Positions 2,474 through 47,184 of a stretch of DNA of 63,201 bases are shown here, in pieces (positions within the stretch are counted from its first letter, which is position 1; each line of letters starts with the position of its first letter). This DNA is from an uncultured Clostridia bacterium (GTDB lineage Bacteria; Bacillota; Clostridia; Oscillospirales; Ruminococcaceae). A program made the translations under genes and the position numbers. The notes below the pieces were generated by a model. That model was not told the origin of the DNA and ran no database searches. It saw only the letters and a program-made list of their open reading frames with translations. The stretch is taken from assembly GCA_947589035.1 (NCBI GenBank), contig CANPYZ010000011.1, positions 1 through 63,201 of the forward strand, given 5' to 3'.

Positions 2474-2758
2474 TTATTCCGTGCCGCCGCTGGTGAGTGT
2501 TGTGATAATTGGCACGACGATATTCATCACAATTAACGTAATGAACCCGAGAATGCCCAAAATTTTTACCAGTTTCTGCAATGCCGCATCACGGGTGTTG
2601 CCTTCATTGTGGGCGTAGAACGAGTCAGTTTCAGAACTGCCGCCGAGGGCAGAAGTCCCATTCTGCTGCGTTTTTTCGTCCTGCATCAAGCAAAGAATCA
2701 CAATCAGCAAAGACAGGAGCAACACAATCGCACCGCAAACAATTTCATAAATTTCCAT
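2474..2758 (-). CDS. secG: preprotein translocase subunit SecG
   Basis: 94 residues. SecG is the small membrane subunit of the SecYEG channel that exports unfolded preproteins. Two hydrophobic helices are visible (about 5-25 and 63-85), separated by a polar loop rich in Ser and Gly (TSALGGSSETDSFY). An AGAGGA ribosome site precedes the ATG, and a consensus promoter lies at 2797-2825. Two segments of this gene (2490-2522 and 2565-2597) are matched by the two spacers of the CRISPR-like array just upstream. Confidence 0.93.
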   Translation of the reverse strand: MEIYEIVCGAIVLLLSLLIVILCLMQDEKTQQNGTSALGGSSETDSFYAHNEGNTRDAALQKLVKILGILGFITLIVMNIVVPIITTLTSGGTE

Positions 2759-2796: not shown

Positions 2797-2825
2797 ATTA
2801 TAACACATGTCTTGAAAAATGTCAA
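2797..2825 (-). promoter_or_regulatory. secG promoter
   Basis: Minus strand: TTGACA at 2820-2825, a 17-bp spacer, TATAAT at 2797-2802, a perfect sigma-A consensus. The -35 box overlaps the foot of the terminator that ends the CRISPR-like array 1 transcript, so array and gene are packed back to back. Confidence 0.85.
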
Positions 2826-2852
2826 GCCCATGAAACTGCTTCATGGGCTTGA
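2822..2852 (-). terminator. terminator after CRISPR-like array 1
   Basis: Perfect 12-bp inverted repeat (TCAAGCCCATGA with a 7-base loop). On the minus strand it is followed by CATTTTTC. It closes the transcript that starts at the array 1 promoter and crosses the repeats. Confidence 0.75.
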
Positions 2853-2867
2853 TTTTAACATAAAGGG

Positions 2868-3017
2868 GTACCACCCCCGCATACGCGGGGAAAAGCTGGT
2901 GAGTGTTGTGATAATTGGAATCACAATAGGATCACCCCCGCATACGCGGGGAAAAGTTCGTTAATTTCTGCAATGCCGCATCACGGGTAGGATCACCCCC
3001 GCATACGCGGGGAAAAG
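2868..3017 (-). CRISPR. mini CRISPR-like array 1 (3 repeats, 2 spacers matching secG)
   Basis: Three 28-bp repeats at 2868-2895, 2929-2956 and 2990-3017 with core CCCCGCGTATGCGGGG (minus-strand reading), flanked by CTTTT and GGTGATCC. They are separated by two 33-bp spacers (period 61), the geometry of type I-E arrays. The repeat at 2868 is altered at its distal end, as expected for a terminal repeat, so the leader is at the high-coordinate side. Both spacers match the adjacent secG gene: 2896-2928 matches 2490-2522 (29 of 33) and 2957-2989 matches 2565-2597 (27 of 33). No cas genes are seen in the window. Confidence 0.85.
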
Positions 3018-3057: not shown

Positions 3058-3086
3058 AGTATACCACAAAAGTCTGAACTTGTCAA
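3058..3086 (-). promoter_or_regulatory. promoter of CRISPR-like array 1
   Basis: Minus strand TTGACA (3081-3086), 17-bp spacer, TATACT (3058-3063). Transcription would start near 3051 and enter the first repeat about 33 bases later. The leader from -35 to the repeat is shared with array 3 (45497-45560), including the GTGGTATACTATAGG block. Confidence 0.85.
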
Positions 3087-3134: not shown

Positions 3135-3163
3135 TTGACATTTTACTAAAAATGTGGTAAAAT
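3135..3163 (+). promoter_or_regulatory. promoter of the 63-residue ORF
   Basis: TTGACA (3135-3140), 17-bp spacer, TAAAAT (3158-3163), then TAGGAGAG just ahead of the ATG at 3189. It diverges from the array 1 promoter about 50 bp away. Confidence 0.75.
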
Positions 3164-3401: not shown

Positions 3402-3556
3402 CTTTTCCCCGCGTATGCGGGGGTGATCCTAAAAGCCATTCAAAAGAAGTCGGCGGAACGGGCTTTTCCCCGCGTATGCGGGGGTGATCCCCCCCCCTTT
3501 ATTTCACAGAGAGTTTGCCCCTCAAAAGCTTTTCCCCGCGTATGCGGGGCGTGGAC
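3402..3556 (+). CRISPR. mini CRISPR-like array 2 (3 repeats; first spacer matches phoR)
   Basis: Repeats at 3402-3429, 3463-3490 and 3529-3556 (same 28-bp repeat as array 1; the last one diverges to GCGGGGCGTGGAC). Spacer 1 (3430-3462, 33 bp) matches phoR at 3710-3742 in 29 of 33 positions. Spacer 2 is 38 bp with a long C run and resembles the segment at the same place in array 3, so it seems to be a constant trailer, not a guide. The array points at the 3' end of phoR and ends at a shared hairpin terminator. Confidence 0.82.
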
Positions 3557-4956
3557 GTTGTCCCATCAGAAAATCCCCCGTTTTCACAACGGGGTTTTTT
3601 TATTGCAGGAAATTTTAACGTCACGCACGTGCCTTTCTGCTCTTCGCTTTCAAGGGAAATTTCTCCTTGATGTGCTAAAACTCCGTGTTTCACAATAGAC
3701 AAGCCTAAACCCGTTCCGCCGACTTCTTTTGAGCGGCTCTCACTCACCCGATAAAAGCGTTCGAAAATTCGTTCCTGTGCCTGTTCCGGAATGCCGATTC
3801 CGGTGTCTTTAATTTGCACGAAAGAATAATTTTCTTCCTGCCAGGTTTTCATATAGACGAAACCGCCCTCATGATTATATTTAATGGCATTATCGCAAAG
3901 ATTATAAATCACTTCTTCTAAAATTTGCGGAATGCCGGAAATATATACATTTTCGCCTTCACAAATTAAAGAGATATGTTGTTTTTCGGCGTTGATGGTT
4001 AAGCGTTCACGGATATTTTGGCAAAGTTGGAAAACATTCACTTCCGTCATGGGGGGCTGCGACGTTTCGCCGGATTCCAAACGGGAAAGCTTTAAAATAT
4101 CATTCACAAGGCTAATCATGCGTTGGGCTTCTTTGTAAATATTATCTGCGAAATGGGCAACATCCTGCTGCTGCACATATCCCTCACGGATAATTTCCGC
4201 AAATCCTGAAATTGATGTCAAAGGCGTTTTCAATTCGTGGGAAACGTTCGCTGTAAATTCCCGGCGCATGTCGTCTTGCTTTTTGTGTTCTCGCTGTAGC
4301 TGTTCAATTTGCTGATGAATTTTTTGGTTCTGGGAAATTAGTTGCAGAATAAACGGCTTCATTTCGGCGTAAATATTCCGGTCGTCAGGGTTTTCCGGGT
4401 CAAGCTGGTTAATCGGAATCATCAGTTTTCGGGAACTTTCCGTTGCAAGCACAACCGAAAGCAGAATAATTAACAGAACAATTAAACTCACTGCGGAAAT
4501 CATTGTTATCACTACTCCTACTGCGGCTTCCTGTTTCATGGAAATTCTGATGATTTGCCCGTTAGTTAATTTTACAGCGTAATTTGCCGTTTTCGTTCCG
4601 GCAGATTCGGAATAGCGGCGGCTTTCGCCTTCGCCTTTCTGGAAGGCTTCCTGAATTTCTTCTCTTCCGGCGTGATTTTCTAAATTATCGGCTGAAAAAA
4701 CGGAATCGAATAATACGGTTCCGTCCTTGTCAATTAACGTAATTCGTTCGCTGCCAATATCTAAATTTAATAAAAATTTATCGCCGTATAAATTTAAAGC
4801 AGAAGATAACATCACGGCTCTGTCCCGCAATTCGTCCATTGTTTTCTGGGATAAATACACATTCATGACAGTTAAAATTGCCGTGAATGTCACTAAAAAT
4901 ACAGTCATGCACCCTAAAAACATTCTTTTCGTTAATTCGTCACGCATTGACTGCAT
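3499..4956 (-). CDS. phoR: PhoR-like sensor histidine kinase
   Basis: 485 residues. TM1 at about 10-32, an external sensor region to about 145, TM2 at about 147-170. HisKA motif NVSHELKTPLTSISGF carries the phosphorylated His. The ATPase has DNAIKYN, DTGIGIP and GGTGLGLSIVKHG. Overlaps the upstream response regulator gene by a few codons, so translation is coupled. Likely phosphate or envelope sensing. The C-terminus is odd: after LKFPA, where relatives usually end, the frame runs through the terminator hairpin and the last repeat of array 2, adding about 30 unrelated residues. Confidence 0.9.
   Translation of the reverse strand: MQSMRDELTKRMFLGCMTVFLVTFTAILTVMNVYLSQKTMDELRDRAVMLSSALNLYGDKFLLNLDIGSERITLIDKDGTVLFDSVFSADNLENHAGREEIQEAFQKGEGESRRYSESAGTKTANYAVKLTNGQIIRISMKQEAAVGVVITMISAVSLIVLLIILLSVVLATESSRKLMIPINQLDPENPDDRNIYAEMKPFILQLISQNQKIHQQIEQLQREHKKQDDMRREFTANVSHELKTPLTSISGFAEIIREGYVQQQDVAHFADNIYKEAQRMISLVNDILKLSRLESGETSQPPMTEVNVFQLCQNIRERLTINAEKQHISLICEGENVYISGIPQILEEVIYNLCDNAIKYNHEGGFVYMKTWQEENYSFVQIKDTGIGIPEQAQERIFERFYRVSESRSKEVGGTGLGLSIVKHGVLAHQGEISLESEEQKGTCVTLKFPAIKKPRCENGGFSDGTTSTPRIRGEKLLRGKLSVK
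3576..3601. terminator. shared hairpin between phoR and CRISPR-like array 2
   Basis: 7-bp GC-rich stem (CCCCGTT / AACGGGG, 5-base loop) followed by T7 on the plus strand, where it ends the array 2 transcript; the minus strand has a weaker T run. Nearly the same hairpin follows rpsT beside array 3, so it may belong to the cassette. Confidence 0.75.
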
Positions 4957-5638
4957 TGTCAGAATCTCCTATTTTGTAGCCAACGCCCCGAATGGTGCGA
5001 ATATAATTTCCCGCTTCACCGAGTTTCTGCCGGAGTGTTCGAATATGCACGTCAACTGTTCTGTTTTCGCCGTCGAAGTTATAGCCCCAGACATGATTTA
5101 AAAATTGTTCACGGCTTAATACAATATTTTTATTTTCTAATAAAAAGCATAGCATTTCAAATTCTTTGAACGTTAAAATAATTTCATTCCCGTTCACCTG
5201 AACAAGATGTTTTTCCGGACAGACGTATAACACCCCTAAATGATATTCTGTTTGTTCCGTAACGGGGAAATTTCCTTTCGCACGCCGTAAAAGCGCACGC
5301 ACACGGGCAAGAAGTTCCAACATGCCGAACGGTTTCGGCAAGTAATCATCTGCGCCGGCATCTAAACCAATGACTTTTTCATATTCGCTTGATTTCGCCG
5401 TCAGCATCATGACGGGAATTTTTTCTGTAGAAATCGTTTTCCGCAAACGGCGCAGAATAGAAATGCCGTCTTCTTCCGGTAACATAATATCTAATAAAAT
5501 TAATTCCGGAAGTTGTTTATCTAAAGCCGTCCAGAAATCAGAAGGCTTTGCGAAACTTTCCGCTTTCATGCCTGCGCTGTTCAGTGTGTAAGTCACTAAT
5601 TCCCGAATGCTGTCATCATCTTCAACAAAATAAATCAT
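4940..5638 (-). CDS. phoP: OmpR-family response regulator (PhoP-like)
   Basis: 232 residues from the ATG at 5638, chosen because GGAGAGAAGAAGAC precedes it and the product then starts MIYFVEDDDS. The receiver domain has the acidic pocket EDDD, the phospho-acceptor in LILLDIMLPEEDG, and the conserved Lys in DYLPKPF. The C-terminal winged helix shows RTVDVHIRTLRQKLGEAG. It is the partner of the overlapping kinase gene. The start overlaps the end of cca by 17 bases. Confidence 0.92.
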   Translation of the reverse strand: MIYFVEDDDSIRELVTYTLNSAGMKAESFAKPSDFWTALDKQLPELILLDIMLPEEDGISILRRLRKTISTEKIPVMMLTAKSSEYEKVIGLDAGADDYLPKPFGMLELLARVRALLRRAKGNFPVTEQTEYHLGVLYVCPEKHLVQVNGNEIILTFKEFEMLCFLLENKNIVLSREQFLNHVWGYNFDGENRTVDVHIRTLRQKLGEAGNYIRTIRGVGYKIGDSDNAVNA

Positions 5639-6953
5639 GTCTTCTTCTCTCCGCACAAGTTAATAAGGCTTTCCGTTCGTTGGGCAAATTATGATATACG
5701 GCTTCTAATAAAATATTCAGCATTTTTCCGATTTCTTCCCCTTCAAAACCAATTGCTTTTAAATCATTTCCGTTAATGGCTAACTCTTTCACACGGCAGC
5801 AAATATTCTGTTCCACGCATCGTTGAAATAAGCTTTCTGCCTGGTTAATCCGGCGGCGGCTTTCGGGTTCAAGAATTTTTTTGGAAAGCCGGTCAGCATC
5901 GAAGATTTGAATTAACATTAAATATTCTTCTTCCGTCAGAATATTTAATAATCTCCGGACAGTAATTAGTTTTTCCGGAATTTTCCGGTGGCAGGCAATT
6001 AATTTCGTGACTTGTTTTCTGGTGGCGTTGTCTGCCTTTAAACGAAGTAAAATATTATCTGCCAGTTTTGCGCTTTTCTCGGCGTGCCGGTAAAAATGCC
6101 CCCTCACGTCAAATTGATAGCACTGCGGTTTGGCAATATCATGAAACAGCATTGTCAGCCGGATGATTAAATTTTCCGGCGAATTGCCGACTGTTTTCGC
6201 AATATGTTCCCAGACGGTGAAATCATGAAATTTCGTATGCTGTGTAAACGCAATACAAGGCGCAATTTCCGGAATATTCACGCATAAAATTTCCGGATAG
6301 GCAAGTAAAACATCAGTAATATATTTTCCCATTAACATTTCACATAATTCCGTGTAAATTCGTTCAGCGGAAATCCATTTCAATTGAAATGCTCCGGCAC
6401 GCATGGCGCAATCTGTTAATAAATCCGGTTTCAAGCCTAAACGAGCGCAGAAACGCATTCCTCTTAAAATTCTTAATGCGTCTTCACGGAATCTTGCAGA
6501 AGGCACGCCCACGCAGCGTAGAATTTTATTCTGTAAATCCTGAACGCCGCCGTATAAATCAATTAATTTCTGGTTTTCCACGTCGTAAGCCATTGCGTTA
6601 CAAGTGAAATCCCGCCGGCATAAATCTTCTTCTAATGTTTCAGCGAACTGCACTTTCTGCGGGTGGCGGTAATCCCGGTAATCCGTTTCAGTTCGGAAAG
6701 TGGTCATTTCCGCAAAACTTCCGGAAAATTTCACGCCAACCGTTCCGAACGCTCTTCCGTAAGCGGAACAATTCTTTTCGCCGAACAGGGAAATAATTTC
6801 TTCCGGTTTGGCATTCGTGGCAATGTCGTAATCATGGGGCATTTTCCCTAACACAACATCTCTCACGCAGCCGCCGACCAAATACGCCTGAAAATTGTTC
6901 TGCAATAATTTCCGGCACATTTGCTGAATCGCTTCAGGAAATGAAAAATCCAT
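5622..6953 (-). CDS. cca: CCA-adding tRNA nucleotidyltransferase
   Basis: 443 residues from the ATG at 6953, preceded by a strong AAGGAGG. The enzyme adds or repairs the 3' CCA of tRNAs. Motifs of the class II family: YLVGGCVRDVVLGKMPHDYD with catalytic aspartates, the RRDFTCNAMAYD motif, and ARFREDALRILRGMRF. An HD-type motif (LFHDIAKP) follows in the C-terminal half. The start lies inside the end of the metallophosphoesterase gene, so translation is probably coupled. Confidence 0.93.
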   Translation of the reverse strand: MDFSFPEAIQQMCRKLLQNNFQAYLVGGCVRDVVLGKMPHDYDIATNAKPEEIISLFGEKNCSAYGRAFGTVGVKFSGSFAEMTTFRTETDYRDYRHPQKVQFAETLEEDLCRRDFTCNAMAYDVENQKLIDLYGGVQDLQNKILRCVGVPSARFREDALRILRGMRFCARLGLKPDLLTDCAMRAGAFQLKWISAERIYTELCEMLMGKYITDVLLAYPEILCVNIPEIAPCIAFTQHTKFHDFTVWEHIAKTVGNSPENLIIRLTMLFHDIAKPQCYQFDVRGHFYRHAEKSAKLADNILLRLKADNATRKQVTKLIACHRKIPEKLITVRRLLNILTEEEYLMLIQIFDADRLSKKILEPESRRRINQAESLFQRCVEQNICCRVKELAINGNDLKAIGFEGEEIGKMLNILLEAVYHNLPNERKALLTCAERRRHDLFC

Positions 6954-44978: not shown

Positions 44979-45239
44979 ATGCCGAATATTAAATCTGCGA
45001 AAAAAAGAGTGAAAGTCAACAAGACAAAAGCTGCTGCCAACAAGGCGAGAAAGTCCAATTTAAAGACCATCATCAAAAAAGCAGAATTAGCTGCTGCGAA
45101 TCAGTCTCCGGACATGGAAACTGCTGTCCGTTTAGCGATTAAGCGTGTGGACCAGGCTTGCGCAAAAAAAATACTGCACAAAAACACTGCCGCAAGAAAA
45201 AAAGCACACCTCGCCAAACTGCTGAACAACTACAAATAA
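44979..45239 (+). CDS. rpsT: 30S ribosomal protein S20
   Basis: 86 residues from the ATG after AAAAGGAGG. MPNIKSAKKRVKVNKTKAAANKARKS and KGVIHKNTAARKKAHL-type C-terminus (here KKILHKNTAARKKAHLAKL) are diagnostic. Positions 45188-45220 are matched by the spacer of array 3 immediately downstream. Confidence 0.97.
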   Translation: MPNIKSAKKRVKVNKTKAAANKARKSNLKTIIKKAELAAANQSPDMETAVRLAIKRVDQACAKKILHKNTAARKKAHLAKLLNNYK

Positions 45240-45286: not shown

Positions 45287-45467
45287 GTCCACGCCCCGCA
45301 TACGCAGGGAAATGCTCCGGTCAAAAAATGCCGCAGCGGAACTCTTTGAGGGTCAAGAACCCTCTGGAAAATAAAGGGGTACTACCCCCGCATATGCGGG
45401 GAAAAAAGTTTGGCAAGATGTGCTTTTTTTCTTGCGGCGGGATCACCCCCGCATACGCAGGGAAAAG
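45287..45467 (-). CRISPR. mini CRISPR-like array 3 (3 repeats; spacer matches rpsT)
   Basis: Repeats at 45287-45314 (terminal variant ending GCGTGGAC on the minus strand), 45379-45406 and 45440-45467. The 33-bp spacer 45407-45439 matches rpsT 45188-45220 in 30 of 33 positions; two of the three changes are synonymous third positions. The 64-bp stretch 45315-45378 resembles the trailer of array 2. A 29-bp segment (45468-45496) lies between the first repeat and the conserved leader. Confidence 0.82.
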
Positions 45468-45531
45468 GCTCACAGTTCAAAAAAACCGTAGCAAAAACGA
45501 TCCATAATTGCTTGGGTACCCCTTCCCCTAT

Positions 45532-45560
45532 AGTATACCACAAAATTCCAACGTTGTCAA
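45532..45560 (-). promoter_or_regulatory. promoter of CRISPR-like array 3
   Basis: Minus strand TTGACA (45555-45560), 17-bp spacer, TATACT (45532-45537), in a block nearly identical to the array 1 promoter. Confidence 0.85.
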
Positions 45561-45843: not shown

Positions 45844-47184
45844 ATGAACAAGAAAATTTTTCCCGCCGTACTCGCTGCGGCAAGCATTCTGACCAATTCA
45901 GCAAGCCTTTCCGCCTTTGCGGAGTCCGTTTCCGGAAATTGGAACGGTCTTGACTGGGAAATTCACAACCATGTGCTGACGATTTCCGGAACTGGTGCAA
46001 TTCATTGCTGTACATGGACATTTCCTGATGATGACATGTTAGAAATTCCGGAATGGTTCGATTATGCACAGGACATTCAGGAAATTGTCATTCAAAACGG
46101 TGTGACCGGTGCGGAAGAACACGCTTTATCTGGTTTTCCGAATTTAGAAAAAATTACTTTGCCGGAAAGTTTCACTTTCCTTGACCCGAATGCCCTATCG
46201 GACAACCCGAATTTAGCGGAAATTTCCGGCTTGGAAAACGTGGAACAATTCGGCTTTCAATGCCTGAGTAACACGAAATATATTGCCGAAAATCCGTTTG
46301 TCATTCATGATAATGCGTTATATTATGCAGAAGGCACGGAATTTACCGTTCCGGACGGCGTGCAGGAAATTAAACCGTTCGCTTTCGGAAATTTCACCGG
46401 AGAAAATTTCATTGCTTATCCGAAAAATGAAAACCAGTCTGTTTATTATGAAATCACTCTGCCGGATTCGGTGCAGAACATTGACGATTATGCTTTCGCT
46501 TACTGTTCCACAATGACCGGAATTAACATTCCGGATTCCGTGCAGAATATCGGGGATTATGCCTTTTTCAACTGCGTGAATTTAGATAATCTCACGTTAG
46601 GGGAAAATCTTTCCGCCATTGGTGAAAACGCATTCTTTAATTGCAAGAACTTGAACCAATTAACCATTCTGAATCCGGAAACGAATTTCCAGCTTGATGC
46701 TTACGGAAATGCGCTTGACTGGGCGGAAACTCTCGAAAATCCGGAATCAGGGCGTTTAGGGCTTTTAGAGAGAGTTCCGCAAACTCTTCTGGAAGAGTTC
46801 CCTTTCTGTTTAGATGAAATGATGTCTTACATAAATTTGCATTTTTTCGAAACGAAACCTTATTCCACTGACCAGAATCCTTCTAAGCAAAAAACCATCA
46901 CGCAAGGCGCAGTAACTGGGCATATTGGTTCAACGGCACAGAAATTCGCCCGCCAGCAGGAATTGCCTTTCCGCCCGTTGGAAGACGGCATTTTCGGCGA
47001 CATGGACGACGACGGCGAAACGTCAATTTTAGATGTCATTTCCGTGAACCGTTACATTCTCGGAAAATCGGCATTTTCCGACAAACAAAACGCTTTCGCC
47101 GATGTTGACCAGGACGGGCAAATTACTCCGGCTGATGCTTTGTTAATGATGAAAAAAATTGTTGGCATTGTCGACGAATTTTAA
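45844..47184 (+). CDS. secreted BspA-type leucine-rich-repeat protein with type I dockerin
   Basis: 446 residues. Signal peptide MNKKIFPAVLAAASILTNSASLSAFAE. LRR_5/BspA-like repeats at about 60-285 (VQNIDDYAFAYCSTMTGINIPDSV-type units). C-terminal dockerin with two Ca loops: GDMDDDGETSILDVISVNRYILG and ADVDQDGQITPADALLMMKKIVG. It would dock to a scaffoldin and may mediate adhesion. Preceded by AGGAGGA. Confidence 0.9.
   Translation: MNKKIFPAVLAAASILTNSASLSAFAESVSGNWNGLDWEIHNHVLTISGTGAIHCCTWTFPDDDMLEIPEWFDYAQDIQEIVIQNGVTGAEEHALSGFPNLEKITLPESFTFLDPNALSDNPNLAEISGLENVEQFGFQCLSNTKYIAENPFVIHDNALYYAEGTEFTVPDGVQEIKPFAFGNFTGENFIAYPKNENQSVYYEITLPDSVQNIDDYAFAYCSTMTGINIPDSVQNIGDYAFFNCVNLDNLTLGENLSAIGENAFFNCKNLNQLTILNPETNFQLDAYGNALDWAETLENPESGRLGLLERVPQTLLEEFPFCLDEMMSYINLHFFETKPYSTDQNPSKQKTITQGAVTGHIGSTAQKFARQQELPFRPLEDGIFGDMDDDGETSILDVISVNRYILGKSAFSDKQNAFADVDQDGQITPADALLMMKKIVGIVDEF

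Follow-up and report, generated by a model that had tools for sequence, protein, structure and literature searches.

Intronless homing endonuclease genes of the T-even phages adjoin their targets; the resident target is resistant through sequence divergence, and the flank is linked. The Sulfolobales portogloboviruses SPV1 and SPV2 carry mini-CRISPR arrays (PMC6858448, in excerpt; reviewed in PMC11656645, also in excerpt). The targets of these mini-arrays lie near the array in the relative, for a reason that the excerpted text calls unclear (PMC6858448). Spacers matching chromosomal housekeeping genes of related species have been reported in archaea (PMC3285040, in excerpt), and CAST elements with homing-site guides carry a guide that matches the sequence adjoining the element (PMC11656645, in excerpt).

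The cassettes described here share several features with the SPV1 and SPV2 arrays as excerpted (PMC6858448). Both have one or two spacers, their own leader and promoter, host-type repeats, and no cas genes. In both, relatives carry different spacers at the same position, close relatives are targeted, and the own copy escapes by mutation or deletion. As in mini-arrays of inter-element conflicts, orthologous regions of relatives are targeted near the array (best foreign match 32/33, none exact), and self-targeting is avoided by mutation (13/15). Unlike the viral arrays, the cassettes appear to be located in bacterial chromosomes, beside secG, rpsT, histidine kinase, uracil-DNA-glycosylase, S4-domain, and DUF378 genes. 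They also differ in having several copies per genome, type I-E repeats, and an optional XRE repressor with a small DUF6809-like gene. The T-even genes resemble the cassettes in the position of the element by its target, the diverged and resistant resident target, and the linked flank; the cassettes differ in using a guide RNA instead of a nuclease, and in having no clear co-conversion signal. The archaeal spacers likewise match related species' chromosomal genes, but proximity between target and array is not described in the excerpt (PMC3285040). Compared with CAST as excerpted (PMC11656645), no transposase was recognised among the ORFs listed near the cassettes, distance and orientation are variable, and both flanks are targeted. 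In the open-licence PMC literature, covered mostly as titles and abstract openings, no earlier description was found of mini-arrays in chromosomes whose guides target the flanks of the array. The new element is that an SPV-like proximity rule is now seen in bacterial chromosomes, at several loci per genome and in four species.

The window is the whole stretch of DNA analysed, 63,201 nt of an uncultured Clostridia bacterium (Ruminococcaceae). It is contig C11 of the genome G000 (2.4 Mb, 95.9% complete). Dockerin-type proteins, judged by eye, suggest a Ruminococcus-like genus. The features of its three mini-arrays are given in Table 1. Array 1 contains repeats at 2868-2895 (degenerate), 2929-2956, and 2990-3017, with a period of 61 nt and spacers of 33 nt. 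Its repeat, read on the minus strand, is CTTTTCCCCGCGTATGCGGGGGTGATCC, with a predicted hairpin fold of -13.2 kcal/mol. When 34-mers were compared, the two spacers matched secG at 30/34 and 27/34, with shuffle maxima of 22/34. Array 2 lies about 400 bases from array 1. The histidine kinase frame crosses a terminator-like hairpin and the truncated repeat (3499-3610), and stops in the array 2 tail, as if the element had landed at the extreme end of the gene. The small ORF beside array 2 had no match in the remaining genus genomes (38 searched) and no Pfam family above the cut-off.

Table 1. Mini-arrays of the window, their targets, and neighbouring features (matches of the array 1 spacers are for the 32-nt cores).
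Feature	Position	Strand	Details
Mini-array 1	2868..3017	minus (crRNA strand minus)	three I-E-type repeats, two spacers
Array 1 spacer 2	2896..2928	minus	secG 2490-2521, 28/32; seed mismatches 3, 7; PAM place AAT
Array 1 spacer 1	2957..2989	minus	secG 2565-2596, 27/32; mismatches only at 25, 27-30; PAM place AAC
secG, target orthologue of array 1	2474..2758	minus	Pfam SecG
Promoter-like site of array 1	3058..3086	minus	TTGACA-17-TATACT; core TTGTGGTATACTAT
Terminator-like hairpin between array 1 and secG	2822..2852	minus	
Promoter-like site upstream of secG	2797..2825	minus	12/12 consensus
Mini-array 2	3402..3549	plus (opposite to array 1)	two full repeats and one truncated, one spacer
Array 2 spacer	3430..3462	plus	histidine kinase gene 3710-3741, on the other flank from secG, 28/32
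Array 2 3' tail	3491..3528	plus	judged non-spacer; by eye like the last-repeat tails of paralogous elements
Sensor histidine kinase ORF, target orthologue of array 2	3499..4956	minus	HisKA, HATPase_c
Promoter-like site upstream of small ORF and array 2	3135..3163	plus	
Small ORF, 63 aa	3189..3380	plus	paralogue adjoins the mini-array at G000:C4
Third mini-array (rpsT site)	45294..45466	minus	one spacer
rpsT protospacer (ribosomal protein S20)	45189..45221	plus	30/33; 3/3 mismatches at third codon positions
Promoter -10 region of third mini-array	45527..45545	minus	TTTTGTGGTATACTATAGG

Further copies were identified on other contigs of G000. The mini-array on contig C4, which has the small ORF in common with the window element, carries a spacer matching the uracil-DNA-glycosylase gene downstream. 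On contig C28, two of the three spacers match the adjoining S4-domain gene and the gene preceding it. The promoter core TTTTGTGGTATACTATAGG is common to all four G000-type elements. Among 396 family genomes, it was found with no mismatches only in these four elements and at one site in another genome (G074), where no such repeat is present within the surrounding 1.8 kb. The shorter core TTGTGGTATACTAT has seven sites in G000: the four G000-type elements, an array on contig C45, and the upstream regions of two tRNA-Met genes (L140, L141), which thus have a promoter core in common with the mini-arrays. Between the rpsT and C28 copies, 347 nt on the leader side are 86% identical and a tail of 179 nt is 87% identical; their spacers differ. 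These paralogous copies suggest that the cassettes are mobile. The C45 array (5617-5809) is diverged; it has the repeat ATTCTCCCCGCACATGCGGGAGTACT and the TTGTGGTATACTAT core, and lies upstream of a fabH-like gene (named by eye). None of its spacers matches the flank, and one is a GTTTGT repeat. Judged from the ORFs listed, the cassette loci are chromosomal in appearance.

The repeat pattern is present in 6 of the 38 genus genomes, including G000. The exact pattern was found in 4 of 109 genomes; in the other three, among the matches listed, it occurs as runs on one contig each. In G006, G028, and G032, the cassettes consist of a mini-array, a divergent XRE repressor (HTH_26), a promoter-like site, and a small gene, and their ends are inverted (GTTGACAGCAAG/CTTGCTGTCAAC-type). 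The family search for this type used one repressor and two small proteins; the small gene resembles DUF6809, below the Pfam cut-off. A cassette is present between rpsT and DUF378 in all three genomes: in G006 it is a single repeat with no spacer, in G028 it has two spacers, both matching rpsT, and in G032 three, matching DUF378, an XRE gene, and rpsT. The three genomes share a second cassette locus, bounded by a transporter-like gene (named by eye) and a GH94 gene. There, spacers of G032 and G028 match one spot in an amidohydrolase gene in opposite orientations, and the G006 spacer matches the GH94 gene. At the shared positions, the spacers are different or absent. Single-repeat, spacerless cassettes were observed where relatives have spacers (L020, 4969-4988; L029, 126-145); these have the look of arrays not yet filled, or of single repeats akin to RNA anti-CRISPRs. 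Overall, a copy combines a promoter-like site with an array of one to three spacers, or with one repeat lacking spacers; some copies additionally have an XRE repressor or a small gene. The cassettes have few spacers and a leader or promoter, and no cas genes adjoin them (ORFs near several cassettes, inspected by eye).

Twenty-seven inter-repeat segments were tested. Two of them, 3491-3528 and the final C4 segment, are array tails and were removed, which left 25 real spacers from six genomes. The count also excludes some other pieces between repeats, namely the 47-nt leader piece of C4, the short second segment of L019, the last segment of L084, and the long tails of C28 and of the array at 45294. 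Comparison with translated flanks showed that 15 of the 25 spacers match their own surroundings, in nine cassettes of four genomes. By cassette type, matches were found for 7/8 in the G000 type, 8/10 in the XRE type, and 0/7 in the rest (three of C45, L019, L023, L025, and L031). One of the 15, the G032 spacer L027_2, targets the cassette's own XRE gene instead of a flanking gene, and it matches the XRE genes of other cassettes better than its own. The ten spacers with no nearby match are C28_2, C45_1-3, L018a, L018b, L019, L023, L025, and L031m. At the nucleotide level, identity of at least 0.75 in the own flank was found for 13 of 23 mini-array spacers (L023 and L031m left out).

The mismatches showed an orthologue-like pattern. 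Across the 15 matching pairs there are 81 mismatches, distributed over codon positions 1/2/3 as 19/9/53 (p=7e-10; the longest open frame was used for five genes). Type I-E systems follow a 5'-AA PAM rule, and the seed comprises positions 1-8 except 6. An AA was present at the PAM place in 8 of the 15 own protospacers, compared with a background of 0.127 (p=2e-4). In 13/15 cases, the resident allele has no AA or has a seed mismatch. Both PAM and seed are retained in two exceptions: secG spacer 1, mismatched only at distal positions and in a genome with no detected Cascade, and L020b in G006, a genome with Cas7e. The spacers of a copy match genes at its own flanks, in a version that resembles an orthologue and that resident alleles mostly escape.

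The arrays fit type I-E in their 28-29 nt I-E-type hairpin repeat, the 61-nt period, and the 5'-AA PAM enrichment. Their repeat class is that of a long array adjoining I-E genes in G028, which include Cse1, Cse2, Cas7, Cas5, Cas6e, Cas1e, a Cas2e-DnaQ fusion, and a Cas3 that runs off the edge of the stretch examined. In this region, Cas2e is fused to a DnaQ-like exonuclease (L026, 3986-4852), and an ISAs1 transposase gene adjoins the long array. Cas7e was found in 3 of the 38 genus genomes (G005, G006, and G028). Neither Cse1 nor Cas7e was found in G000 (95.9% complete), and Cas7e was not found in G032 (79% complete). The arrays of these two genomes may be inert there. Since Cse1 and Cas7e were not found, the G000 arrays could be remnants, could become active only once transferred, or could rely on cas genes within the missing 4%.

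These features are, on balance, probably explained by chromosomal guide-only type I-E cassettes, which would turn the host Cascade-Cas3 against alleles of the cassette's own locus, incoming or rival, and so destroy them. New spacers would be added by the host Cas1-Cas2 upon entry of orthologous DNA from related strains. The transcribed crRNAs would then direct Cascade-Cas3 against other alleles of that locus, whether incoming or co-resident, that have a rival cassette or none. With the targeted alleles destroyed, the cassette would be safe from overwriting by homologous recombination. When a cassette enters another lineage, the same cut could exchange an empty allele for the cassette allele. 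A rule that targets lie in cis requires either cis selection or cis acquisition; cis selection is favoured. Selection in cis would explain why the targets lie within ~1.4 kb of the array: a guide against an alternative allele of its own locus would block cassette loss by homologous replacement, and may also aid spread.

Cis acquisition is the basis of the strongest alternative, in which the array took up its spacers from the flanking resident sequence, for instance where the DNA broke nearby, and these stayed unchanged as the genes later diverged under purifying selection. This would explain the proximity without selection, and third-position mismatches are likewise expected from it. In G000, both spacers against secG and the one against rpsT also fit it, as each matches its own allele best when relatives' loci are compared; the wide comparison covers these two targets. 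However, for the eight matching spacers of G006, G028, and G032, the allele of another species was closer for five, three were ties, and the own allele was best for none. The other species' and own alleles matched at 28 and 26 of 32 for L024_1, 28 and 23 for L027_1, 24 and 22 for L027_2, 27 and 25 of 33 for L020b, and 32 and 31 for L084. In addition, 7/15 own protospacers have no AA PAM, and the acquisition of spacers from the own chromosome is expected to harm a cell with an active I-E system. A self-derived origin is therefore considered unlikely. The guides look as if they were aimed at relatives' alleles of the same locus, as suggested by sequence comparison.

The donors of the spacers were searched among these relatives. 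The exact secG orthologue that the original prediction proposed to look for did not turn up: secG is present in 37 of the 38 genus genomes, and across 30 loci (own included) none of the 29 others matched better than the own gene. The nearest relative SecG is 80% identical to that of G000. For rpsT, present in 35/38 genomes, no exact match was found among 30 loci and the own one. More broadly, none of 22 spacers (the three C45 spacers left out) was identical to any non-array site in 144 sequences; the nearest were L084 (32/33) and L028 (31/33). A degenerate secG pattern returned a single locus, in an Oscillospiraceae MAG from goat omasum, and its sequence rules it out as the donor. As to viral or plasmid origins, only weak matches were obtained, for the two secG spacers against phages (best E 0.3) and for the histidine kinase spacer against plasmids (best E 0.9). 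Among viral contigs, there were no exact cores of the two secG spacers and no contigs with the repeat pattern.

The spacers might also be a passive memory, with ordinary type I-E adaptation sampling the chromosomal DNA of related species and the proximity having no function. Archaeal spacers against housekeeping genes of related species are a known precedent, as excerpted (PMC3285040). But such sampling predicts a random placement of spacers among arrays, which was not seen; the spacers match only their own locus or its orthologues. None of 348 comparisons with unrelated cassette flanks reached at least 0.75 identity (highest 0.72). The long arrays of G005, G006, and G028 gave 0/102 own-flank matches of at least 0.75 (maximum 0.66; p=7e-12 against the mini-arrays). 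When long-array spacers were compared with the cassette flanks, a single comparison of 1648 was above 0.75, at 0.81, and it involved a BspA-like gene (named by eye). This BspA-like gene, at position 46061 of the window, is matched at 26/32 by spacer 2 of the G028 long array (L026). Two long-array spacers scored above their ten shuffles, L030 spacer 17 (25/34, at ~5 kb) and L022 spacer 8 (22/34). Passive memory is thus quite improbable. The same controls bear out the original prediction that the secG matches were not due to chance, and nine cassette loci in four genomes behave alike. Its reading of array 1 as a CRISPR-like array beside secG, with two matching spacers (given as 29/33 and 27/33), agrees with the present comparison, and its proposal of orthologue-like third-position differences held for all 15 spacers taken together; the pattern is wider than it described, extending to array 2, the third mini-array, and nine cassettes in four species.

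CAST-like transposition, in which the spacers would direct insertion of the element beside its target, is very unlikely. Each paralogous copy does lie near its own protospacer. However, target and array are separated by anything between 59 and 1330 nt, and the element is found now on the PAM side of the protospacer and now on the opposite side, so that the 15 matching spacers do not show the fixed distance and orientation of CAST; no transposase, and no TnsABC or TniQ gene, was recognised by eye among the ORFs listed near the cassettes. Regulation, in which the crRNAs would repress or attenuate the adjoining resident gene, is scarcely credible: the array adjoins the gene and the crRNA is in the gene sense in 11/15 cases, but 13/15 resident alleles have no PAM or seed match, array 1 is set apart from secG by a terminator-like hairpin as well as a promoter-like site, and G000 has no detected Cse1 or Cas7e. 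Of the roles first proposed for the secG array, excluding DNA from the locus or homing to it fits the data; regulating the resident gene does not, for these reasons and because relatives' alleles fit better for 5/8 spacers outside G000, and neither does homing with a CAST-type geometry.

Within the explanation by guide-only cassettes, guarding of the locus is the cautious version of the mechanism, and homing, as a natural drive, is the bold one. In the latter, a guide-only cassette would cut the recipient's orthologous flanks in a relative bearing I-E, and recombination would then bring in the cassette along with its own flanks, which resist cutting. The XRE repressor, present beside some cassettes, would silence the array in cells that already carry the cassette and release it in recipients new to it, an arrangement that would suit zygotic induction. 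Such an RNA-guided gene drive is offered tentatively and is rather unlikely. Identity at the cassette loci was 85.1-92.5%, compared with 85.6-92.9% for gyrA (three species, one control gene). Between G028 and G032, the second shared locus was 89.2% identical, and a further 701 nt 93.2%, compared with 86.2% for gyrA. No clear rise in identity over gyrA, as a sign of flank co-conversion or active homing, was found among G006, G028, and G032. Recent spread among these genomes is not clearly supported, because the identity of the cassette loci is much like that of gyrA.

In summary, the proximity rule at several chromosomal loci in four species points to selection on linkage, in which a guide is retained if it hits alternative alleles of its own site. 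If this is true, CRISPR guides in ordinary bacterial chromosomes would be barriers or drives directed at particular alleles, and would shape interspecies recombination around housekeeping genes.
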